Source of the DNA: Sphingobacteriia bacterium
GTDB lineage: Bacteria > Bacteroidota > Bacteroidia > Bacteroidales > TTA-H9
Assembly (NCBI GenBank): GCA_021286705.1
Contig: JAJTBW010000007.1
Coordinates: 1 to 41,075, forward strand
DNA: 41,075 nucleotides
Direction: 5' to 3'
Each line of letters begins with the position of its first letter. Position 1 is the stretch's first letter. The translations under genes were made by a program, and so were the position numbers. Under the pieces are notes generated by a model. The model did no database searches. It was not told the origin of the DNA and saw nothing but the letters and a program-made list of their open reading frames with translations. Below are positions 11,975-23,732 of the stretch, piece by piece.

Positions 11975-12688
11975 TTAAACTAGAGGTTGATTTGATAACT
12001 TCCTTTTTAGGTAGTATTCATAAAGCATTATATTTAAAAGAAATAGACCTAAGAAATAGATAAAATCTTCTAATGGGATAGATAGTATTCGGATTGTTGA
12101 AAAGTAAGAATCATTGTAGATAACAACAGGCAGACTTGTAAGCAAACCGTTGACCATAAACTTTGGAATGAGGACGGTTAAATAGCCTACTGCGAAGGCT
12201 AGCCAGAAGTTATTGAAGGAGGGTCTGAAGAGAAGAAAAACAACTATTGCAATCGCACTTAGGCTAACCCATGAGGTATAGAGTTGCGAAAAAGGGAATC
12301 CTCTGAAAGACAAAAATAGAATGATGATTAATAGAGCCAGATACCCAGGGGTTCTATTGTTCGACTTTAATAAATTAGGGAAATAACATTTAAAGACTTC
12401 GTAGACAAAGAGACTACAGTAGGGGATTACGAAAAAAAACAGGATCTCTTCAATTGGTAGCCCAAATATAGATATCCCCAATGTATACTTTTTAGAGAAA
12501 CTCCAAACATTCATGGACGTAAATACTGCATCCCATGCAATGTACAGTATTGCAGGTAGGACAATAGAGAGCCATGAATGTTTGAACTTATTGAAAAAAG
12601 AGACTTTTTTGTCAAAACTAAGAGAAAGAGGGCCTAAAAGACTACCGAGTAGTATAAGGAGATAATATAGGTTTTCGATGGAGATCAT
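11975..12688 (-). CDS. Lycopene cyclase, CarR/CrtYcd membrane type
   Basis: A 237-residue integral membrane protein with about seven hydrophobic helices and two repeats of the lycopene cyclase domain. Each repeat carries the acidic motif expected of this family: PIEE (78-81, in LPIEEILFFF) and PLED (205-208, in IPLEDFIYF). This type fuses the two halves found as CrtYc and CrtYd in actinobacteria and makes beta-rings from lycopene. The open frame reaches back to 12760 inside the phytoene synthase gene, but the start at 12688 gives a normal N-terminus just before the first helix. It is the last gene of the leftward carotenoid operon. Because the locus also encodes CruF, which acts on an open psi end, this enzyme probably cyclises only one end, giving gamma-carotene; that is inference. 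Confidence 0.88.
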   Translation of the reverse strand: MISIENLYYLLILLGSLLGPLSLSFDKKVSFFNKFKHSWLSIVLPAILYIAWDAVFTSMNVWSFSKKYTLGISIFGLPIEEILFFFVIPYCSLFVYEVFKCYFPNLLKSNNRTPGYLALLIIILFLSFRGFPFSQLYTSWVSLSAIAIVVFLLFRPSFNNFWLAFAVGYLTVLIPKFMVNGLLTSLPVVIYNDSYFSTIRILSIPLEDFIYFLGLFLLNIMLYEYYLKRKLSNQPLV

Positions 12689-12731
12689 AGTTAACCGTTT
12701 AGTTTGAATAGTACCTAATTTGCAATTAGTA

Positions 12732-13568
12732 CTATAGCATGTTAACCTGATTTCTTGCAAATGTGTTAAGCATAATGAGAAGCTTTCTGGTATTTGAAAC
12801 CCTATAGCGTTGTTTCAATATATTCTCCGGGGGTGCAGCAACAATTTTTCGTAGTAAGTTTTGATAATACTTATAAGCTAGGTAGACTCCAAATCGCACC
12901 TCCTTTTTAAGACTTTTTAATCCAATTTGAGCCTCTTTGAAATCGAGTGCAATCTCAGCTTCAATCTTTCTTTTTGTTTCAATATCAAAATTGTTGAAAT
13001 CGATGTTCTTAAAATAAATTCTCCCTTTTCCTTCAAAGTCATCAGAAGCATCTCTGAGGAAGTTAACTTTCTGGAAAGCCTCACCTAGTTTTCTTGCGGG
13101 GAGTTTTAATTTCTCATATGATTCAGGGTCATTTGAGTAAAAGACCTTAAGGCACATTAAACCAACGACCTCAGCCGAACCATAGATATAGGTTCTAAGC
13201 ATCTCCTCATCATAGACTTTTTCATTGAGGTCAAGCTTCATGCTATAGAGGAAAGCCTCTATTAAGTCATGGTCAATATTGTAATGGTTGGTAACCCATT
13301 GGAAACTATGCAAAATAGGGTTGGTACTAATTTTACGATCAATAGCCTTCCATGTCTCTTGTTCGAATTCCTCAAAGAGAGTTTTTCTGTCATAGTTGAG
13401 GAAAGTGTCAACGATCTCGTCAGCATACCTCACAAATCCATAGATAGCATAGATGGCTCTTCTATATTCCGGGCTAAGCATTCTAACGCCCAGAGAGAAC
13501 GAAGTGGAGTAGTTTGAGGTTGTTACTCTGCTTATTTCCAGATTATTTTTAAGATATAACTCCATCAT
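12732..13568 (-). CDS. crtB: Phytoene synthase
   Basis: Joins two geranylgeranyl diphosphate molecules to make phytoene, the first committed step to C40 carotenoids. The 278-residue protein has both magnesium-binding aspartate motifs of the trans-prenyl synthase fold: DEIVD (50-54) and DASDD (173-177, in NFLRDASDDFEGKGRIYF). YAIYGFVRYAD before the first motif is typical of CrtB. Its start overlaps the 3' end of the desaturase gene by 20 bp and its stop lies 43 bp before the cyclase start, so the three leftward genes form one operon. No GGPP synthase gene is in the window. Confidence 0.95.
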   Translation of the reverse strand: MMELYLKNNLEISRVTTSNYSTSFSLGVRMLSPEYRRAIYAIYGFVRYADEIVDTFLNYDRKTLFEEFEQETWKAIDRKISTNPILHSFQWVTNHYNIDHDLIEAFLYSMKLDLNEKVYDEEMLRTYIYGSAEVVGLMCLKVFYSNDPESYEKLKLPARKLGEAFQKVNFLRDASDDFEGKGRIYFKNIDFNNFDIETKRKIEAEIALDFKEAQIGLKSLKKEVRFGVYLAYKYYQNLLRKIVAAPPENILKQRYRVSNTRKLLIMLNTFARNQVNML

Positions 13569-15033
13569 ATTTTAAGATCCTTTCTGTTACGAGTTTTGAA
13601 CTAATGACTACCATAGGGAGTCCTGTACCGGGTGTAGTAGAGGCTCCAACATAGAATAGATTAGGGAAGACCTCATCTTGGTTTGAAGGTCTGAAGTAAC
13701 CCACCTGATTTAGGTCATGGGCTAATCCTAAACCGCTTCCCTTATATAGGTTGAACATCTTTTCCCACTGAATAGGAGATAAAACAGTTTTAGAGACGAT
13801 GCTGGAATGGATATCGAAATCGATCCTTTGAGACAGATCAGTAATTATCCCATCGGCTATCTGCTCGGCATCATCCCAATTTGATTTATATCTGAGATCG
13901 GGAACCGGACAAAGGATAAACAGACTCTCATGTCCTTCAGGAGCATAATCAGCATTATGAACTGAAGGAATATTGAGGTAATAGTACGGTTTATCGAGTC
14001 CTATCGAGTTTTTAAATATGCGACTGGCATACTCTTTAAAGTTTCTTCTCAGGAAATAGTTATGATGGTACAGTGAATCCAGTTTTCCTTTAACACCGAG
14101 GTAAATTGTCAAAGGAGCCATTGTCCAGTGTAGGTTATCCAGCTTTTCTTCAGTGTATTTCTCTCTCGAAAACATTTTCCCTCTGAAGGCTGCTGCATCG
14201 GCATTGACTACAAATCGATCGGCTTCCCATTTATTCCCATGTTGGTCAATAAAACCCTTTAATACTGCGTGTTCAGTATAATAGTCGGTTATCTCAACAT
14301 TAAAATGGAAAGTGACGCCTCTTGCTTTAAGTTCATTAACAAGCCCCTCCACTATTTTGTACATCCCTCCTTCAACATTATAGTATCCATCATGTTTAAG
14401 TTCGGTATAAGTCAAGAGTGTAAATACCGCAGGCGTATCAAATGGAGTTGAACCAAGGAAAAAGCCAACCAGTGAAAAAATAACTTTAACCTCAAAACTT
14501 GAGAAGTGCTTGCCAAGTTCATCCCACATATTAGTGACCATACCCGGAGCATGTTTCCATGGTACTTTTGACATACTTAGGAGGTAGTGAACCAGTGAAT
14601 TAAAGTTCTTTTTAATTATAATATTCTCGGTATCATGGAAGATTTTCCCTGTTTTATCAAGGAATTTCTCCATCCTTCTTTTAAAACCCGGTTCAAGCTT
14701 TTCAAACTCAGCCTCGAGTTTATCAAGATTTTTATAAATAAGATATTTCTTCTGGTCGCCCTCGAAATGGACAGCGTATAATGGATCAAGTTCTATGAAA
14801 GAAAAGGGTTTTTTCATGCCCGCATCTTTCATTAACTCGTCGAATTCATAACTCATAGAGAAAAACGTAGGAGCTAAATCCCATTTGAATCCATCTTTTT
14901 CGAGTAAATTTAATCTACCCCCTGGTTTATGGTATTTATCAACCATTTCAATTTGATAACCACGCCTTGATAACCTTAAGGCGGTTGATAAGGCTCCTAA
15001 ACCTGTTCCTATTATCAGTACTTTTTTTGACAT
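13549..15033 (-). CDS. crtI: Phytoene desaturase
   Basis: FAD-dependent CrtI-type desaturase (494 residues) that converts phytoene to lycopene. The N-terminal dinucleotide motif is GTGLGALSTALRLSRRG, followed by the PGGR segment of the family. The C-terminal FAD motif is YVGASTTPGTGLPMVVISS. The dinucleotide motif has L and A at positions where most relatives have I/S and G, a minor departure. It is the first gene of the leftward operon, overlaps crtB by 20 bp, and starts 92 bp from the divergent crtD-like gene. The order crtI-crtB-cyclase provides the core route to a beta-ring carotenoid. Confidence 0.93.
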   Translation of the reverse strand: MSKKVLIIGTGLGALSTALRLSRRGYQIEMVDKYHKPGGRLNLLEKDGFKWDLAPTFFSMSYEFDELMKDAGMKKPFSFIELDPLYAVHFEGDQKKYLIYKNLDKLEAEFEKLEPGFKRRMEKFLDKTGKIFHDTENIIIKKNFNSLVHYLLSMSKVPWKHAPGMVTNMWDELGKHFSSFEVKVIFSLVGFFLGSTPFDTPAVFTLLTYTELKHDGYYNVEGGMYKIVEGLVNELKARGVTFHFNVEITDYYTEHAVLKGFIDQHGNKWEADRFVVNADAAAFRGKMFSREKYTEEKLDNLHWTMAPLTIYLGVKGKLDSLYHHNYFLRRNFKEYASRIFKNSIGLDKPYYYLNIPSVHNADYAPEGHESLFILCPVPDLRYKSNWDDAEQIADGIITDLSQRIDFDIHSSIVSKTVLSPIQWEKMFNLYKGSGLGLAHDLNQVGYFRPSNQDEVFPNLFYVGASTTPGTGLPMVVISSKLVTERILKYDGVIS

Positions 15034-15087
15034 TTGTTTAAGAAAGATGCGTTAAAGATTAAACAAAATTGAGGCAGATTGTTTAAT
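15034..15087. promoter_or_regulatory. Candidate shared operator between the divergent carotenoid operons
   Basis: The 92-bp divergent region holds a perfect 9-bp inverted repeat, ATTAAACAA (15058-15066) and TTGTTTAAT (15079-15087), separated by 12 bp. A third TTGTTTAA half-site is at 15034-15041, next to the crtI start. A plausible but imperfect rightward promoter, TTG (15079-15081), 17 bp, TAAATTTT (15099-15106), overlaps the right arm. A regulator bound here could control both operons. No regulator gene is in the locus. Confidence 0.45.
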
Positions 15088-15125
15088 AGTTATCTAAATA
15101 AATTTTTTTAGCAACAAAAATCGCC

Positions 15126-16586
15126 ATGGCTATAGCAATAATAGGATCTGGAATTTCGGGTTTGGCTGTTGCAATTCGGCTTAGCAGAGCTGGAAAGAGA
15201 GTGTTTGTTTATGAATCAGGGGCAACCTATGGAGGGAAAATGGGTGTTTTTGAAAAAGACGGATATCGATTTGATATGGGCCCCTCCTTGTTTACCTTAC
15301 CGGATCAACTCTCTGATCTTTTAGATGATGATTTGAAGATCGAAACAATAAGACTTAAGACACTAAATAGAAACTTTTTTTCTGATGGAAAGGTTTTTGA
15401 TGCCCCGGCTGATTCAGTTGCATTTGCCGAAGAAGCATCAAAGGCATTTGCGATTGATAAAAGAATTTTAAGGGATTATTTAAAAGAGGCGAAAGCTCTT
15501 TGGGAATTAACCGCTCCGGTGTTTATCTATCGGAGTCTGCATCGGCTAAAAGATCTTATTAAGTGGAGTAACTATCATTATTTGTATAGATGGACTCAAC
15601 TAAAACCATTTACTTCACTTCATCGATACAACCAACGCAGGTTTGGGAATTCCGGGTTGGTCATGTTGTTCGATCGATATGCAACCTATAATGGGAGCAA
15701 TCCTTACTTAACTCCGGCGACACTTCGTGTAATAAGTCATTTAGAAAATAATCTGGGAGCATATTTGCCAGTCCGTGGGATGCGAAGTATTGTTGATGCC
15801 TTATATCAACAAGCAATTCGATTAGGCGTTGAGGTAATTTTTAACGCAAGAGTCTCCAATATCGTCAGAGTGGGAGAACGGTGGGAGTTAACAGTCAATG
15901 ATAGCATCCAAGGGTATGAGAAGGTTATTAATACTATTGATGTCCGAACTTTCTACCGAGAGATCTTCAAAAATAAATCCTTGCTTTTAAAAGAGAGCAA
16001 AAAAGAACTATCGACATCAGCTTTAATCTTTTATTGGGGAATTGACAGGAGGATTGAGAAGTTGGATGTTCATAATGTTTTTTATTCAAGTAATTATCAT
16101 GAGGAGTTCAAGGAATTGAAAAGAGGAACTAAACTCTTTGATGACCCAACGGTTTATGTATATAATAGTTCTGTGGTAATAAAAGAGGACGCTCCCGAAA
16201 ATTGTTCTAATCTGTTCATTATGATAAATGCGCCAACTGATAGAGGTCCAGATTGGGTTTCCTGGGTTAATCAAATACGACCCATAATTTTGAGGAAGCT
16301 AGAGAAAGCACTTGGTGACGAGCTGGAAAAGTGGATTGTATTGGAAAAGGTACTAACTCCAAGAATGATTGAAACTGGGACAGGTAGTTTTGGGGGGGCA
16401 CTCTATGGATCGGCTTCGAATAGAATAGATTCAGCCTTTAAGAGACATCCAAATTTCTTAAAGGGGTATCCGGGACTATATTTTGCTGGAGGGAGTGTCC
16501 ATCCTGGTGGAGGAGTACCGCTCTGTTTAGCTTCTGCGAAAATTGTTGAAATGCTAATAAATGAAGATGAGAAAAATAATGGATAG
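15126..16586 (+). CDS. crtD: CrtD-like carotenoid 3,4-desaturase (CrtI superfamily)
   Basis: A second FAD-dependent carotenoid desaturase (486 residues), divergent from crtI. FAD motifs are visible at both ends: GSGISGLAVAIRLSRAG with YGGKMG downstream, and YFAGGSVHPGGGVPLCLASAK near the C-terminus. CrtD enzymes introduce the 3',4' double bond in 1'-hydroxy carotenoids. The assignment to CrtD and not to a second CrtI rests mainly on context, since cruF, whose product is the CrtD substrate, starts within its last 26 bp. It is the first gene of the rightward operon of six genes. A weak promoter candidate lies at 15079-15106. Confidence 0.82.
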   Translation: MAIAIIGSGISGLAVAIRLSRAGKRVFVYESGATYGGKMGVFEKDGYRFDMGPSLFTLPDQLSDLLDDDLKIETIRLKTLNRNFFSDGKVFDAPADSVAFAEEASKAFAIDKRILRDYLKEAKALWELTAPVFIYRSLHRLKDLIKWSNYHYLYRWTQLKPFTSLHRYNQRRFGNSGLVMLFDRYATYNGSNPYLTPATLRVISHLENNLGAYLPVRGMRSIVDALYQQAIRLGVEVIFNARVSNIVRVGERWELTVNDSIQGYEKVINTIDVRTFYREIFKNKSLLLKESKKELSTSALIFYWGIDRRIEKLDVHNVFYSSNYHEEFKELKRGTKLFDDPTVYVYNSSVVIKEDAPENCSNLFIMINAPTDRGPDWVSWVNQIRPIILRKLEKALGDELEKWIVLEKVLTPRMIETGTGSFGGALYGSASNRIDSAFKRHPNFLKGYPGLYFAGGSVHPGGGVPLCLASAKIVEMLINEDEKNNG

Positions 16587-17220
16587 ATTGCCCGGAGCGA
16601 ATTGGGCGATAGCATTTATAATAATAATTCATCTGGTGGGGGTTGTCGGCTTTGCTTTCAATGAGACGAGGTGGATGTTTCAGAATATGGTTCCTTTTCA
16701 TCTTCTCCTTTGTGTGGTGTTGCTGATTGTTTATATGAAGTCACGAAAGGGGGTATTACTAAAACCTTTGATTGGGATCTTCTTTTTAGGGTTTATTGCC
16801 GAGATGATAGGAGTTAATACCGGGTTACTTTTTGGGAACTATGCCTATGGTTCGTATTTAGGCATTAAGATATATAATACCCCCTTGATGATTGGAGTAT
16901 TATGGGCGATGCTGGGCTATCTTTTCTCTGGTGTGATGCGATCGATATCCCATAAATGGTATTTCATACCTCTGGGGGCATTATTAATGACTTTGTTTGA
17001 TTTGGTAATGGAGCCAGGTGCCGTCAGTATAGGCTTATGGAGATGGGAGGGAGACTATATCCCTATTTTTAATTATGTTACCTGGTTTTTACTCTCAATT
17101 CCAGTTTTTACTATTACCAGAAAGTATGCTGTGGACATGAAGAATCCTTTAACAGTTAGCTTGTTGTTGTCACAAATGGGATTCTTTCTGGCTCTCACTG
17201 TTATTAGTTACCTAAAATAA
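16561..17220 (+). CDS. cruF: Carotenoid 1',2'-hydratase CruF (DUF422 family)
   Basis: A 219-residue membrane protein of the carotenoid-biosynthesis family that includes CruF of Deinococcus and cyanobacteria. These enzymes add water across the 1',2' double bond of the psi end of gamma-carotene-type carotenoids. Family-typical segments include GVNTGLLFGNYAYG, NTPLMIGVLWAMLGY, and FDLVMEPGAVSIGLWRWEG, whose acidic residues are expected to be catalytic. About six TM helices are visible. The start overlaps crtD by 26 bp; in-frame ATGs at 16567 and 16579 are alternatives. Its presence means that at least one end of the carotenoid stays uncyclised and gains a tertiary hydroxyl. Confidence 0.87.
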   Translation: MKMRKIMDRLPGANWAIAFIIIIHLVGVVGFAFNETRWMFQNMVPFHLLLCVVLLIVYMKSRKGVLLKPLIGIFFLGFIAEMIGVNTGLLFGNYAYGSYLGIKIYNTPLMIGVLWAMLGYLFSGVMRSISHKWYFIPLGALLMTLFDLVMEPGAVSIGLWRWEGDYIPIFNYVTWFLLSIPVFTITRKYAVDMKNPLTVSLLLSQMGFFLALTVISYLK

Positions 17221-17227
17221 TCTGATT

Positions 17228-17920
17228 ATGGGAATAATAATTTCACTATTAATAATTGTCCTTTGGATTGGTAATCTCTATTTATCATTATTCTTCTCTT
17301 CTGAGACATTAGTTTCAGGTTGGACATTTATTTTTATCCTTCTTCAGACTTGGTTATCCGTAGGTCTATTCATAGTTGCACATGATGCGATGCATGGTAG
17401 TATCTCACGTATTGCTAGACTTAATGTGATATTAGGGAGTTTCTGTACATTTTTATATGCTGGTTTATGGTTTCCTCATTTAATTAAAAAGCATAAGCTT
17501 CATCATGAAAATCCGGGAACAGAATTAGATCCTGATTACTCTTCTGATCAGAGATTTTTTATTTGGTGGTGGCGTTTTATGAAAGAATATCTAACGATAT
17601 GGCAGCTCGTAATAATGGCCGTAATATTCAATATTGGCTTGCTCTTTTTTAGTGAAGGACAGCTACTTCTCTATTGGGTACTGCCGTTAATTTTATCTAC
17701 TTTTCAACTCTTTTATTTCGGAACCTATCAACCACATAAGCTTCCTCATTTTCCAATAATGGAGCCATATAAAGCACGCACCTATCCTTATCCTAAATTA
17801 GTTGCCTTTATCACCTGTTTCTATTTTGGATATCACTTCGAACACCATTTTAGCCCTAAAACTCCATGGTGGAGATTACCTTCAATAAAGAAGCAATTAA
17901 TGGGTACCAAGCAGGTCTAA
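17228..17920 (+). CDS. crtW: Beta-carotene ketolase (CrtW type)
   Basis: A 230-residue membrane di-iron oxygenase. The histidine boxes are HDAMH (52-56), H89-KL-HH93 (followed by ENPGTELDPDY) and H203-FE-HH207 (followed by FSPKTPWWRLPSIKK). This spacing, with the PWW-LP ending, is that of CrtW 4-ketolases and not of hydroxylases or acyl-lipid desaturases. It would place a 4-keto group on the beta-ring. It starts 7 bp after cruF. No CrtZ-type 3-hydroxylase is in the window, so a keto, non-hydroxylated ring is predicted. A related fatty-acid desaturase remains a less likely alternative. Confidence 0.85.
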   Translation: MGIIISLLIIVLWIGNLYLSLFFSSETLVSGWTFIFILLQTWLSVGLFIVAHDAMHGSISRIARLNVILGSFCTFLYAGLWFPHLIKKHKLHHENPGTELDPDYSSDQRFFIWWWRFMKEYLTIWQLVIMAVIFNIGLLFFSEGQLLLYWVLPLILSTFQLFYFGTYQPHKLPHFPIMEPYKARTYPYPKLVAFITCFYFGYHFEHHFSPKTPWWRLPSIKKQLMGTKQV

Positions 17921-18594
17921 TCAATTTGAAATACTTCAAAGTGAGAAATACTTTAGATTACATTGCATTTGAAAATTTACCAGATATGGATGAGAGAAGA
18001 ATTGATCAGTTTACTTTAAAATGGGTAACAGGATGGTTTAGGCTGCTGGGGTTGTTTCTCTTTAAACGGATTAGACTAGATTATGATGGGGAGGTTCCTA
18101 AAGGGGCTATTCTTTTACTTCAGAATCATTTTAGTTGGTGGGATGGCTATTTTGCCTGGCTTATCAGTAAGAAATTGGGAAAGAGGTTTTATGTTATGAT
18201 GCTTAAGGAGCAGATTAATGCGAGACCTTTTCTGAGTAAGGTTGGGGCTTTTCCTGTCTCGCCCGGAAAACGTTCAATAATTGAATCTTTTAGGCATGCT
18301 TCGAGGTTATTGTCTGATGATAACAACTTGGTTACCATATTCCCAGAAGGGGAGATTAAAAGCATATACAAGCCCCAAATCAAGTTTAAACCCGGAATTT
18401 CGTTATTGAGTGCAAATTATAATTATCAGTACCATATTCTATTCTCTTTTGTATTTGTAGACTATTTCTCTTCACCCAGACCAACTGTAACCATTAGACT
18501 TCATTGGTATGATTCAAATGATTTTTCTGTTGAAGCATTAGAATCTGCTTACAATAATGAATTTGTCGACATGGCTAAAAAGCAAATCCAATGA
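17866..18594 (+). CDS. PlsC-like acyltransferase, probable carotenoid glycoside acyltransferase
   Basis: A glycerolipid-acyltransferase-fold enzyme (242 residues from the first ATG). The catalytic HX4D motif is H88-FSWW-D93, and the acceptor motif FPEGE lies at 159-163. The start is uncertain: ATG 17866 lies 55 bp inside crtW, TTG 17926 follows the crtW stop codon, and ATG 17986 is the next in frame. All keep both motifs. It overlaps the glycosyltransferase gene by 4 bp (ATGA), so the two are translationally coupled. The acyltransferase-glycosyltransferase pair inside a carotenoid operon parallels CruD/CruC of green sulfur bacteria, which acylate and glucosylate chlorobactene. The acceptor here is inferred from context only; ordinary phospholipid synthesis cannot be excluded. 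Confidence 0.8.
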   Translation: MVEITFNKEAINGYQAGLINLKYFKVRNTLDYIAFENLPDMDERRIDQFTLKWVTGWFRLLGLFLFKRIRLDYDGEVPKGAILLLQNHFSWWDGYFAWLISKKLGKRFYVMMLKEQINARPFLSKVGAFPVSPGKRSIIESFRHASRLLSDDNNLVTIFPEGEIKSIYKPQIKFKPGISLLSANYNYQYHILFSFVFVDYFSSPRPTVTIRLHWYDSNDFSVEALESAYNNEFVDMAKKQIQ

Positions 18595-19709
18595 ATACTA
18601 TCTTTTTTATATTCATGGGAGCACAATTGGTAATCACAGTGGTGAGCCTTATTAACCTGATTTCGATGCCATGGATTGAGTGGGCTGGTAAACAAGGTGA
18701 AAAGGAGGTTTCTAATAGAAAAATATTACCGGATATTCTTGTCCCTGTAAGAAACGAAGAGGCGCGTATTGAACCGCTTTTAAATTCTTTAGAGGGTAGC
18801 TTGCCCAGCCTTCGGAAAGTTATCTTCTGTGATGATCACTCTACTGATTCTACCGCATCTATTATTGAGAGATCAATTGAAAAGTGTCCACAAATTAGCA
18901 TGATAAAGGGAGCGGAACTCCCAGACGGATGGAATGGGAAGACCTTTGCCTGCCATCAATTGGCTCAAAAAAGTGAGAGTAATTTAATGCTATTTCTGGA
19001 TGCTGATGTCACTTTAGCTCCTCAGCTACCAGTTGTTATTTCAAATATTCTTACTAAAAAACAATTAGCTCTTGTCTCAGTCTTTCCGTTTCAAGAGATG
19101 AAGAGTGTAGGGGAGTTGACTACGGTGCCCATAATGCATTGGATCCTTTTGTCACTTTTGCCTCTGCGAATGGTTTATTGGTTAAAGGGCAAATCAATAG
19201 CCGCAGCCAATGGCCAGGTGATGTTGTTTGATTCTAAGACCTATAGGTTAAATCAATGGCATAGACTGGTGAAAGATGAGGTGGTTGAAGATATTAAGAT
19301 TGCCCGGTTAATCAAATCCAGGAATTATAAGATGGCCGTTTATGTTAGTCATAATCTCGTTAGGTGCAGGATGTACGGCTCATATAAAGAGGCTATAAAA
19401 GGATTTTCAAAGAATATCCATGAATTCTTTGGAGGGTCACGATTAATAGCATTGCTGTATTTTATCTTATTAGGGGTTGGTCCTGTTGCTGTTTTACCAT
19501 TTCTTACTTTTTGGCAGAGTATATTGTTGGCTTGCTTTATTATTATAAATAGGCTTTCTACCTCATTTGCTGCTGGCCAGAATGGATTGATTAATTTACT
19601 TCTGCACCCATTACAAGTGTTGGCAATGGGGCACATTTTGATTGTTAATTTTATAGAGAAGACTAAAAAGAGAATTCAATGGAAAGATCGGAACATAGAT
19701 TTAGACTAA
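18591..19709 (+). CDS. Family 2 glycosyltransferase, probable carotenoid glycosyltransferase
   Basis: A membrane-anchored GT-A fold glycosyltransferase (372 residues). It has an N-terminal helix (about 3-26), the nucleotide-sugar motif VPVRNEEARI (51-60), CDDHSTDST (80-88), the metal-binding DAD (137-139 in LFLDADV), a later ED in VVEDIKIARL, and two to three C-terminal TM helices. This layout matches CruC/CrtQ-type enzymes that glycosylate carotenoid hydroxyls at the membrane. The likely acceptor is the 1'-OH made by CruF, inferred from the operon. It is coupled by a 4-bp overlap to the acyltransferase and by a 31-bp overlap to the next gene. Confidence 0.85.
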   Translation: MNTIFFIFMGAQLVITVVSLINLISMPWIEWAGKQGEKEVSNRKILPDILVPVRNEEARIEPLLNSLEGSLPSLRKVIFCDDHSTDSTASIIERSIEKCPQISMIKGAELPDGWNGKTFACHQLAQKSESNLMLFLDADVTLAPQLPVVISNILTKKQLALVSVFPFQEMKSVGELTTVPIMHWILLSLLPLRMVYWLKGKSIAAANGQVMLFDSKTYRLNQWHRLVKDEVVEDIKIARLIKSRNYKMAVYVSHNLVRCRMYGSYKEAIKGFSKNIHEFFGGSRLIALLYFILLGVGPVAVLPFLTFWQSILLACFIIINRLSTSFAAGQNGLINLLLHPLQVLAMGHILIVNFIEKTKKRIQWKDRNIDLD

Positions 19710-20398
19710 GAATTATCGTATTGTTGCTTTTATTATCAAAGGTATCCTTTGGTCAAATGAACGGAGAGCAATTAAGCTGTCGCTTACTCGAAGATTATAT
19801 TACCGGGAACAAAGCTGATTGGGAGGCTGTTCTGAGGGATAATTCATTGGACTCTGTTCACAGCATTAATGATCAGTTGGTTTATACCAGAGCTAGATAT
19901 GGATTAATAGGGATTTTATTAGAGGCAAAAAGGAAGACAGATGCCTCAAGACAGATAGAAATATTAGAGCAACAGCTTCAAGCATTGTTAAAGCAGAATC
20001 CAACACATCCGGAGTTAATGAGTATGTATGCCGGATTAAATGGGTTTAAGATTTCGCTTCAGCCTTTTAAAGCTCCTATTTATGGGAGGATTTACAATAA
20101 TCGAATGGACGAAATTAAAGGGGCAAATCTTAATAATCCGTATGTTCTATTTGAAAGGGGTAATTCGCTTTTCTATCGTCCGGCGATATTTGGCGGAGAT
20201 AAGAAGGAGGCAATAAAACTTTGGGAAGAGGCAGACCGGCAGTTTGAGGCTGATTCGAAGGGGAATTGCAATTGGTATGCACTTCATCTGAAGGTTATGT
20301 TGATAAAGGGATATGAGGAGATAGGTGAAACTCGTAAGGTACTGATTTTAAAGACTACGGTCAGGGTAAGGTATCCTAAAATGGAGTGGCTCAGATAA
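19679..20398 (+). CDS. Secreted protein of unknown function with TPR-like helices, end of carotenoid operon
   Basis: A 239-residue protein not recognised by name. A basic start and hydrophobic stretch (RIIVLLLLLSKVSFG) ending near residue 25 look like a signal peptide, so it is probably periplasmic. The rest is helix-rich. NNPYVLFERGNSLFYRPAIFGGDK followed by EAIKLWEEADRQFEAD looks like a tetratricopeptide-type repeat, and the region at 80-125 may hold a second. The start overlaps the glycosyltransferase by 31 bp, tying it to the carotenoid operon, and it is the last gene of that operon. A scaffold or carrier role for the envelope pigment is possible, but nothing in the sequence proves it. 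Confidence 0.72.
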   Translation: MERSEHRFRLRIIVLLLLLSKVSFGQMNGEQLSCRLLEDYITGNKADWEAVLRDNSLDSVHSINDQLVYTRARYGLIGILLEAKRKTDASRQIEILEQQLQALLKQNPTHPELMSMYAGLNGFKISLQPFKAPIYGRIYNNRMDEIKGANLNNPYVLFERGNSLFYRPAIFGGDKKEAIKLWEEADRQFEADSKGNCNWYALHLKVMLIKGYEEIGETRKVLILKTTVRVRYPKMEWLR

Positions 20399-20487: not shown

Positions 20488-21225
20488 ATGACCCTACTGA
20501 AGTTAATAAAAAGAACCGCAATAGCTCAAAAAAAGCAAATCGCTTTACTAGTCGATCCAGATGGTCGTGATGTTGCCTATTTTGAAATGATGGCAAAGAC
20601 AGCTCAAGAGGCTGGGGTTGATTTTGTGTTTGTTGGTGGAAGCCTTATCGGCGATGATCAGATGGATATGTGTTTAGAAGCCTTTAAAAGAAACAGTTCA
20701 TTACCTCTGATTCTTTTCCCTGGTAGCGTGATGCAGGTAAATGCAAAGGCTGATGCCATCTTGTTTTTAAGTTTAATTTCTGGGAGAAACGCCGAGATGC
20801 TCATAGGACGACAAGTTGTAGCCGCTCCTTATGTGAAGAAGGCTGGGCTAGAGGTTATCGCTACAGGCTATATGTTGATTGATTCTGGCAGAGGAACAAC
20901 AGCACTGTATATGAGTAATACGTTACCTATCCCTGCTGATAAGCCTCAAATCGCAAGTTGTACTGCAATGGCAGGAGAGATGTTGGGATTACAGGTTATT
21001 TATCTTGATGGGGGTAGTGGTGCTGAATCCCCAATTCGTGGAGAGTTGATCAGGGAGGTCCGAAAGAGTGTTGAGCTACCCATTATTGTTGGTGGTGGTA
21101 TAAGAACGGAGGAGCAGGCGATTGAGGCCTGTAAAGCAGGAGCTGATTTGGTCGTTGTAGGTACTATTGCTGAAAGAGATCCGGATAAGCTTGCTTCCAT
21201 TACTAGGGCTGTACATAGCCTTTGA
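20488..21225 (+). CDS. Geranylgeranylglyceryl phosphate synthase (GGGPS/PcrB family)
   Basis: A TIM-barrel prenyltransferase (245 residues) that in characterised relatives joins glycerol-1-phosphate to geranylgeranyl diphosphate through an ether bond, the first step of archaeal-type membrane lipids. Visible family elements are LLVDPDGRD (20-28), VGGSLIGDD (49-57), YLDGGSGAESPI (172-183), VGGGIRTEEQA (201-211) and VVVGTIAERDPDK (222-234). The glycine-rich loops bind the glycerol phosphate. Bacteroidota are known to carry a bacterial branch of this family, but what they make with it is not settled. It lies 89 bp after the carotenoid operon and would use the same GGPP pool as crtB. The prenyl chain length is not readable with certainty here. 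Confidence 0.9.
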   Translation: MTLLKLIKRTAIAQKKQIALLVDPDGRDVAYFEMMAKTAQEAGVDFVFVGGSLIGDDQMDMCLEAFKRNSSLPLILFPGSVMQVNAKADAILFLSLISGRNAEMLIGRQVVAAPYVKKAGLEVIATGYMLIDSGRGTTALYMSNTLPIPADKPQIASCTAMAGEMLGLQVIYLDGGSGAESPIRGELIREVRKSVELPIIVGGGIRTEEQAIEACKAGADLVVVGTIAERDPDKLASITRAVHSL

Positions 21226-21999: not shown

Positions 22000-23054
22000 C
22001 TAATGCAAAATCAACTTCTTTACTTTATTGTAAACTATAACCTCAATCAGATAAGAGAAAAGAAGCATTACAATCAGATAAAGAGAGTATTCAATGAACT
22101 TGTTGTTTATAAATCGCAAGTAGGTGGCTTCAATGACCAGATAGTGGTGCGATATGTAAATTACATAGGAAATAGCTGCAATATGCTTGAATTTTCCTAG
22201 TAATAAATCGAATCCGATCCAATTTAGTTTCTTCCAAATTATCGAACCGATAACTACAATTAGTGCACAGCTAAAATGCCGTAACTCCACAAAAGGATAA
22301 GCAACTAGCGGGTAATGGTAAATCTTGGTATACTCAAAGTTTAACTTAAGATTCAGAGCCAAAATCACTGAAATAATAGAAACCATTATTATTTGTAAAG
22401 TGATTGCTTTGAAGGTAAATTCCTCCTTTTTAAGATATATTTCCGCAAATCTTACACCAGTCCACCAAATAGCAAAATACATTATCAAGCGGTTTACTAT
22501 AAATGGGTATATCAGATAAGTCGCAGCTGCTAAAATGGTCAAGCCAAAAACAAAACGATTTAATTTCTCTGATTTAATATTAGTGACCAGAACATAGAAT
22601 AACATATAAAACCACCATTCGTAAGACAGAGACCAAAGCACCCCATTTCCAAGATAAGATGGAACAATAACATTTGGCTTAAGGCTATACACATCTTGAA
22701 GCATGAAGACATTGCCTAAGAGGTTCAAAAGTTCCGGATTAGCTAACCCTCCAGCTTTATAGCACTGTATGAGGTAACCCATTAAAATATGATGAATAAG
22801 GGTATGTATAACCTTATAAATCGTCTTATAAAGTAGTATCTGAATGATTTATCTTTTGACTTCTCGTAAGTATATTTGATAACAAAGCCTGAGAGTAAAA
22901 AGAATACAATAACCATTTCTGGCCCAAATCGAAAAAGAAAGCCAATGTTAATTCCAAATAAAAAGATCTTTTGAGGTAACATATGGAAGAAGACTACGTA
23001 AAGTGCAGCAAATCCACGTACTGCTTCCAGTTTCTCTAGTCGGTTTGTGTTCAT
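22000..23054 (-). pseudogene. Acyltransferase-3 family membrane protein, split by a frameshift
   Basis: Two adjoining minus-strand frames, 23054-22782 (90 residues) and 22782-22000 (260 residues), together make one about 350-residue acyltransferase-3 (OafA/NodX-type) protein of normal length. The first half has the family start LEAVRGFAALYVVFFH with the conserved histidine, then FLLSGFVIKY and RRFIRLYIPL. The second has the typical SLSYEWWFYMLFYVL segment and about eight TM helices. The first frame ends at TAA inside TTTTAATG, and one extra T in the run of four would join them as IFLMGYLIQ. It is a recent inactivating deletion, a sequencing error, or a slippage site; the second half could also restart at the overlapping ATG. 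Relatives O-acetylate surface polysaccharides. Confidence 0.85.
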
Positions 23055-23569: not shown

Positions 23570-23593
23570 TAGCCTCGTTCATTCGATTAACCG

Positions 23594-23691
23594 CTTATCC
23601 AGAAAGGTGGAGGGATTAGGCCCTGCGAAACCTTGGCAACCTGTGATATCACAAGGTGCCAATTCCTACCCGTTAAATCGGGAGAGATAAG
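23594..23691 (+). ncRNA. SAM-I (S-box) riboswitch aptamer
   Basis: The aptamer binds S-adenosylmethionine and shuts off the downstream methionine genes. P1 is CTTATC (23594-23599) with GATAAG (23686-23691). Conserved core elements are in order: AGAAAGGTGGAGGGA, GGCCCTGCGAAACC, TTGGCAACC, AAGGTGCCAATTCC and a final hairpin ACCCG-TTAAAT-CGGGA before AGATAAG. These are the hallmark conserved stretches of SAM-I and not of SAM-II or SAM-IV. It lies upstream of metB and homoserine dehydrogenase, as expected. Confidence 0.95.
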
Positions 23692-23732
23692 ATCAGGTGA
23701 TGTTTCTGAATCATATGATGAGGAAATGATGC

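Follow-up and report, generated by a model that had tools for sequence, protein, structure and literature searches.

A compact locus for a predicted acylated keto-carotenoid glycoside in a member of the Bacteroidales, and a conserved HusA-related protein encoded with it

Green sulfur bacteria reportedly modify chlorobactene in two steps, in which a glycosyltransferase (CruC) and then an acyltransferase (CruD) act on its 1'-hydroxyl group, a pathway that Maresca and Bryant are said to have described in 2006. In Rhodothermus marinus, salinixanthin and its non-hydroxylated form are both made, and rhodopsin is undetectable (PMC5822342). The genes for that pathway lie in a two-operon cluster in which crtB and crtI are set apart from the other modifying genes; cyclization and ketolation are assigned to CrtY and CrtO, no CruF or CrtD is recognised, and CruC is encoded outside the cluster (PMC5822342). 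The flexixanthin cluster of Algoriphagus includes crtZ, and neither a glycosyltransferase nor an acyltransferase is mentioned for it (PMC10784355).

The locus that we describe here lies within a 41,075-nucleotide stretch (the window) of a Bacteroidales genome that is 95.19% complete in 322 contigs. It resembles R. marinus in its two-operon layout, in the separation of crtB and crtI from the other modifying genes, in the lack of a rhodopsin, and in its predicted end product, a monocyclic 4-keto carotenoid that bears an acylated glucosyl group. Unlike in R. marinus, genes for CrtYcd, CrtW, CruF, CrtD, a family 2 glycosyltransferase (GT2) and a PlsC-type acyltransferase are all found together and, unlike in the Algoriphagus cluster, both transferases are present and crtZ is absent. 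The logic of a GT2 followed by an acyltransferase on the 1'-hydroxyl is that of the green sulfur CruC/CruD pair, whereas the aglycone differs from chlorobactene. This likeness to CruC draws on the presence of one member of the same GT2 family in each FMO-positive green sulfur genome. Within the Bacteroidota, Prolixibacter denitrificans and Gaoshiqia sediminis have an identical gene order (crtYcd-crtB-crtI / crtD-cruF-crtW-PlsC-GT2-ORF239), with GT2 proteins that are only about 40% identical to that of the window; a literature search on carotenoids of Prolixibacter or Draconibacterium returned nothing relevant by title or abstract.

All eight genes that the first-pass annotation had named were found intact and in the claimed order, with family matches ranging from E 1e-12 to 1e-132 in profile searches (Table 1). 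The interval that it covered also takes in a ninth gene, left undescribed there, which we call ORF239 and which is conserved with the operon. The genes had been said to overlap throughout, and this holds for crtI/crtB (20 nt), crtD/cruF (26 nt), PlsC/GT2 (4 nt) and GT2/ORF239 (31 nt, with the ORF239 start lying within the GT2 gene), but not for cruF/crtW, which are separated by a 7-nt gap. Two further junctions depend on the choice of start codon: crtYcd and crtB overlap only if an in-frame TTG at 12760 is used, and crtW and PlsC only if translation begins at an in-frame ATG at 17866, whereas the alignment of relatives favours the ATG at 17986. No Rfam match was found in the region between crtI and crtD. 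We also considered the GGGP synthase gene pcrB (20488-21225) as a member of the system and rejected it, because its adjacency is seen in the window only.

Table 1. Features of the carotenoid locus, in window coordinates, with the matches on which each assignment is based.
Feature	Position	Strand	Basis
crtYcd (CarR-type) lycopene cyclase, likely monocyclase	11975..12688	-	PF18916 111.9 bits and TIGR03462 96.2 bits, both above cut-off
crtB phytoene synthase	12732..13568	-	PF00494 145 bits; Asp-rich motifs DEIVD, DASDD; below CrtB equivalog cut-offs, scores as HpnD/CrtB-like
crtI phytoene desaturase	13549..15033	-	TIGR02734 334.8 bits, above cut-off
Divergent crtI/crtD intergenic region, 92 bp	15034..15125	.	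AT-rich
crtD 1'-hydroxycarotenoid 3',4'-desaturase	15126..16586	+	Best match NF042421 CrtD 442.6 bits (cut-off 500) vs crtI_fam 275.9
cruF carotenoid 1',2'-hydratase	16561..17220	+	PF04240 76.6 bits; TIGR03460 70.7 bits, below its archaeal cut-off
crtW-type 4-ketolase	17228..17920	+	Best NCBIfam match CrtW NF045690 217.5 bits (equivalog cut-off 350)
PlsC-family acyltransferase, CruD-like in putative role	17986..18594 (or from 17866)	+	PF01553 46.2 bits; HX4D (HFSWWD) and FPEG motifs
GT2 glycosyltransferase, HpnB/CruG/CruC kind	18591..19709	+	PF00535 52.8 bits; HpnB 90.9 bits and CruG (NF045692) 87.7 bits (cut-off 600), both below equivalog cut-offs
ORF239, TPR-like, HusA-related, predicted signal peptide	19679..20398	+	Last gene of block; conserved after GT2

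Because most of the enzymes score below NCBIfam equivalog cut-offs, the exact regiochemistry of the pathway is something that we infer. The analysis shows which genes are present, how they are ordered and linked and to which families they belong, and from this we deduce the order of the reactions, the position of the sugar, its acylation, the place of the pigment in the membrane and what ORF239 does. The score of the GT2 against the CruG model marks it as a member of a related family, outside the equivalog; within its own family the DAD motif is invariant and the ED motif nearly so. The three histidine boxes of CrtW (HDAMH, HKLHH and HFEHH) are kept in relatives, and the PlsC protein has a 255-bit match to the cruF-linked PlsC family.

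Taken together, a monocyclase, a 1',2'-hydratase, a 3',4'-desaturase and a 4-ketolase are all encoded in the locus. GGPP would be supplied by a polyprenyl synthase encoded elsewhere in the genome, which has two such genes, and would be converted by CrtB and CrtI to lycopene. CrtYcd would then close one beta ring, CruF would hydrate the psi end to give a 1'-hydroxyl, CrtD would desaturate the 3',4' bond, and the 4-keto group would come from CrtW. Finally, the GT2 would glycosylate the 1'-hydroxyl and the PlsC-type enzyme would acylate the sugar, giving in effect 2'-deoxy, or "non-hydroxylated", salinixanthin. The CruF and CrtD steps have been proven in a flavobacterium (PMC11855829). The likely product is thus 1'-O-(acylglycosyl) 4-keto-1'-hydroxy-3',4'-didehydro-gamma-carotene, as predicted from the enzyme families. 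We put at roughly 77% the probability that the locus is a complete biosynthetic set for a monocyclic, acyl-glycosylated keto-carotenoid that has a membrane role and is not a rhodopsin antenna.

The earlier statement that no CrtZ is present was borne out across the genome: a probe search found no homologue, and the same probe gave matches in 7 of 41 genomes, among them two of the same family. The 3-hydroxylase of the flexixanthin pathway is therefore missing here, and the 1'-hydroxyl made by CruF would be the sole hydroxyl acceptor for a sugar. It is rather unlikely, in our estimation, that a 2'-hydroxylase is encoded elsewhere and adds the C-2' hydroxyl that would make the product true salinixanthin. 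The operon has no extra oxygenase, and the CrtA 2'-hydroxylase model (NF045923) had no match in this genome or in 40 relatives, a search that is thus without a positive control. However, R. marinus makes the hydroxylated form with no identified gene for 2'-hydroxylation (PMC5822342), so the absence of CrtA says little. The first-pass annotation had proposed an acylated glycoside of a deoxyflexixanthin core that lacks the 2'-hydroxyl; the glycoside is well supported, both by the lack of CrtZ and by the locking of GT2 and PlsC to cruF described below, whereas the absence of the 2'-hydroxyl is not secured.

An improbable alternative is that the pathway ends at free deoxyflexixanthin, and that GT2 and PlsC are only neighbours that serve some other glycolipid, such as an HpnB-like hopanoid or a phospholipid. 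The GT2 does score alike against HpnB and CruG, and PlsC matches generic acyltransferase models only. Against this stands the distribution of the two families. Of 41 related genomes, 14 have strong GT2 matches, and the strong PlsC matches fall in those same 14; the gaps to the next scores are wide (207-827 bits and then 48.6 for GT2; 236-315 bits and then 34 for PlsC), and cruF sits in the same block as the two genes. Among 56 named loci, defined as those with at least 3 kb on each side of GT2, cruF is near GT2 in 51 and PlsC in 50, a near-perfect linkage across Bacteroidota. In a tree, the cruF-linked GT2 proteins form a clade split from six weak paralogues with a support of 100, and the family has its green sulfur members. 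In the wider phylum GT2 scores drop gradually, from 508 to about 255 bits, and so the GT2 family as a whole extends beyond this operon; in Mucilaginibacter, some members have no cruF within reach. The cruF-PlsC-GT2 arrangement is an old, conserved block. Neither the score gaps nor the GT2 tree groups the two transferases with phospholipid or polysaccharide enzymes, which the first-pass annotation had named as a result that would count against it, and at the family level they appear to be a carotenoid-dedicated pair.

The resemblance of the predicted pigment to salinixanthin had also led to the forecast of a light-harvesting rhodopsin, which finds no support: there is no PF01036 match in this genome at its 95% completeness. 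Across the order, 2 of 149 genomes have matches above the cut-off (G038 and G058), and G038 holds both a carotenoid cluster with crtW and a rhodopsin. The retinal-forming dioxygenase family PF15461 had no match in this genome or in the rhodopsin-bearing ones. Because R. marinus makes salinixanthin without detectable rhodopsin (PMC5822342), such a pigment is in any case a weak ground for expecting the protein. An antenna role for the pigment, in partnership with a xanthorhodopsin-like pump of its own cell, is thus largely refuted, despite its nearness to salinixanthin and the co-occurrence in G038, since the probe that finds nothing here is positive in those two genomes of the same order and the G038 rhodopsin is itself nearer to proteorhodopsins (best 269.6 bits) than to the Salinibacter ruber xanthorhodopsin (86.9 bits). 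Most likely the acylated glycoside would act as an antioxidant and stabiliser of the membrane.

ORF239 follows GT2 in 35 of the 36 loci in which cruF is upstream and in none of the 15 in which cruF is downstream, and across loci its start usually overlaps the GT2 stop. Its AlphaFold2 model (pLDDT 91.6) has as best natural PDB match in a Foldseek search HusA (E 1e-4; TM 0.55/0.63), the haemophore of Porphyromonas gingivalis, which has a hydrophobic groove (PMC6173696). HusA is also the best natural match of the ORF239 sequence profile against the PDB (E 1.5e-9), the single window sequence reaching only E 0.027, and the two share a Y.PA.FGG.K.KA-like motif. In the search with the full profile, HusA was outscored by designed consensus TPR proteins; these were discounted, because their lead comes only from summed short repeats. 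ORF239 is thus predicted, from model and profile, to be a secreted protein with a TPR-like fold and sequence homology to HusA. Both are all-helical; HusA is a porphyrin-binding protein that serves the receptor HusB (PMC6173696), whereas the ORF239 clade lies among carotenoid genes and has no paired TonB-dependent receptor. This crt-linked clade is separated from its paralogues with a support of 99.4, and the seven neighbours of paralogues elsewhere that were tested are receptor-like (TonB-type).

Tentatively, we suggest that the ORF239 family may consist of dedicated carotenoid carriers, translationally coupled to GT2, whose hydrophobic groove, repurposed from porphyrin capture, would take acylated carotenoid glycosides through the periplasm, with the outer membrane as the probable destination. 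Among the papers listed by a literature search on periplasmic or outer-membrane carriers of carotenoids, none was relevant.

The pigment locus itself is a known kind of pathway with expected chemistry; it gathers the route to a salinixanthin-type pigment into one compact locus, in a gene order common to P. denitrificans and G. sediminis. ORF239 is the new point, and its conserved family is a concrete candidate for how highly hydrophobic carotenoids may move between the membranes of Gram-negative bacteria.

The carotenoid locus of the window is real. Reading positions 11975-20398 directly from the sequence and scanning them against Pfam and NCBIfam yielded nine ORFs in divergent minus- and plus-strand sets separated by a 92-bp gap, and the profile matches and motifs upheld the gene names of the first-pass annotation. 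Its description of overlaps throughout holds only in part: cruF and crtW are separated by 7 nt, and crtW overlaps the acyltransferase gene (PlsC) only if the latter is read from an upstream start codon that is not conserved in relatives. The ninth gene, ORF239, lay within the region assigned to the locus and had been left undescribed.

Features of the carotenoid locus and the sequence 3' of it
Feature	Position	Strand	Basis
crtYcd		-	PF18916, TIGR03462
crtB		-	PF00494
crtI		-	TIGR02734
crtD		+	NF042421 (best match)
cruF		+	PF04240
crtW		+	NF045690 (best match); all three histidine boxes
PlsC acyltransferase		+	PF01553, HX4D
GT2 glycosyltransferase		+	PF00535, DAD and ED motifs
ORF239	19679-20398	+	ninth gene, last of block
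PcrB-family geranylgeranylglyceryl phosphate synthase	20488-21225	+	PF01884, 127 bits; immediately 3' of ORF239
Acyl_transf_3 protein	22000-23054	-	PF01757; split over neighbouring ORFs of 90 and 260 aa
SAM riboswitch	23592-23693	+	RF00162, 85.7 bits

The PcrB-family enzyme would compete for GGPP, and its position next to ORF239 was not seen in any other locus compared. The two Acyl_transf_3 ORFs cover consecutive stretches of the profile; the split gene is a frameshift, a pseudogene or a sequencing error. Downstream of the riboswitch is a gene run resembling methionine metabolism.

In a set of 41 genomes, made up of this one and others of its family and order, strong GT2 matches occurred in 14 (207-827 bits; all others at most 48.6) and strong PlsC matches in the same 14 (236-315 bits; all others at most 34.1), with cruF in the same block. 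A scan of named genomes gave 80 GT2 loci; in the 56 whose flanks extend 3 kb or more in both directions, cruF was near GT2 in 51 and PlsC in 50. Prolixibacter denitrificans and Gaoshiqia sediminis repeat the full order, crtYcd-crtB-crtI / crtD-cruF-crtW-PlsC-GT2-ORF239. Six weak paralogues separate from the cruF-linked GT2s in the tree (support 100). The family is common in a broader phylum sample (234/395 genomes, E <= 1e-40), with one copy in each of four genomes that are identified as green sulfur bacteria by their FMO protein (PF02327). CruC acts in green sulfur bacteria, and the GT2 of the window thus belongs to a family present there. As far as the comparison could be taken, neither enzyme grouped with those of phospholipid or polysaccharide synthesis, the outcome that the first-pass annotation had named as a refutation.

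Six Mucilaginibacter loci (L051, L052, L068, L069, L076 and L089) have two PlsC-like genes adjoining GT2, which suggests double acylation or diverged acyltransferases. A full Bacteroidales-type block on a contig labelled Patescibacteria (L103) is probably mis-binned. At L146 (G490:C18, 5575-9682) crtI and crtB are fragmented and cruF abuts a truncated ORF239, with no PlsC or GT2 between; this is a decaying cluster, or possibly an assembly error.

We consider the predicted pigment, a salinixanthin-like acylated keto-carotenoid glycoside, likely to be right. In the flavobacterium Nonlabens spongiae, work on the individual genes has proven what CruF and CrtD do (PMC11855829), and the flexixanthin pathway of Algoriphagus, minus CrtZ, equals the core set of the window without the sugar (PMC10784355). 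No CrtZ homologue was found in this genome with a probe that detects one in 7 of 41 genomes, two of them family members. The C-1' hydroxyl made by CruF is therefore the only one, and as the simplest acceptor it would receive the sugar. A search for a 2'-hydroxylase, run with no positive control, gave no match. GGPP could come from two polyprenyl synthases encoded elsewhere in the genome. We infer the order of the reactions, which sugar and acyl chain are attached, and at what position; the predicted end product is identical to a compound measured in Rhodothermus marinus, non-hydroxylated salinixanthin (PMC5822342).

The accompanying forecast of a light-harvesting rhodopsin fails. PF01036 has no match in this genome (completeness 95.19%); the probe works, since it detected rhodopsins above its cut-off in two of 149 genomes of the order (G038 and G058). 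R. marinus makes salinixanthin with rhodopsin undetectable (PMC5822342). The antenna idea is therefore unsupported here. G038, another Bacteroidales genome, has both an acyl-glycoside carotenoid cluster with crtW and a rhodopsin of the proteorhodopsin kind (loci L031 and L038), and is better placed than the window for a carotenoid antenna search.

Of the 36 named loci that have cruF upstream of GT2, 35 carry ORF239; of the 15 that have cruF on the downstream side (Sphingobacteriaceae, Ignavibacteria and others), none does. The absence of ORF239 nearby in the Sphingobacteriaceae loci makes it dispensable for glycosylation as such. In the tree, a branch with support 99.4 has all carotenoid-linked members on one side. 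In many loci the 5' end of ORF239 overlaps the GT2 gene by 25-34 nt, and a single stretch of bases encodes both WKGR, the conserved C-terminus of GT2, and MER, with which ORF239 begins, an arrangement that suggests translational coupling.

The N-terminus of ORF239 is signal-peptide-like, most members have TPR matches, and the AlphaFold model is all-helical and confident (pLDDT 91.6). Foldseek's sole PDB match below E 1e-3 was HusA, the Porphyromonas gingivalis haemophore (E 1e-4, TM 0.55/0.63, rmsd 5.0). HusA was also the best natural protein in a profile search of the PDB (E 1.5e-9, a single 110-residue stretch), was found again with a trimmed profile (E 4.7e-7), and was the sole, weak match of the window's protein as a single query (E 0.027), over a common Y.PA.FGG.K.KA-like segment. 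HusA holds porphyrins in a hydrophobic groove with no iron coordination and is thought to hand them to its receptor HusB (PMC6173696).

Away from carotenoid loci, ORF239 paralogues are often adjoined by TonB-type receptors (7 neighbours verified). This genome encodes a second ORF239-like protein (L157, G000:C32, 2068-4949); the gene beside it is of the CarboxypepD-reg receptor-like type and a LytT-like regulator comes next, a layout resembling that of HusA and HusB. These observations fit ORF239 as a carrier drawn from a family that binds hydrophobic ligands. Because TPR folds commonly serve as simple scaffolds, we put the chance of this at about one in four. The pigment chemistry is already known, and the novelty of the locus is the conserved HusA-like protein that closes the operon.
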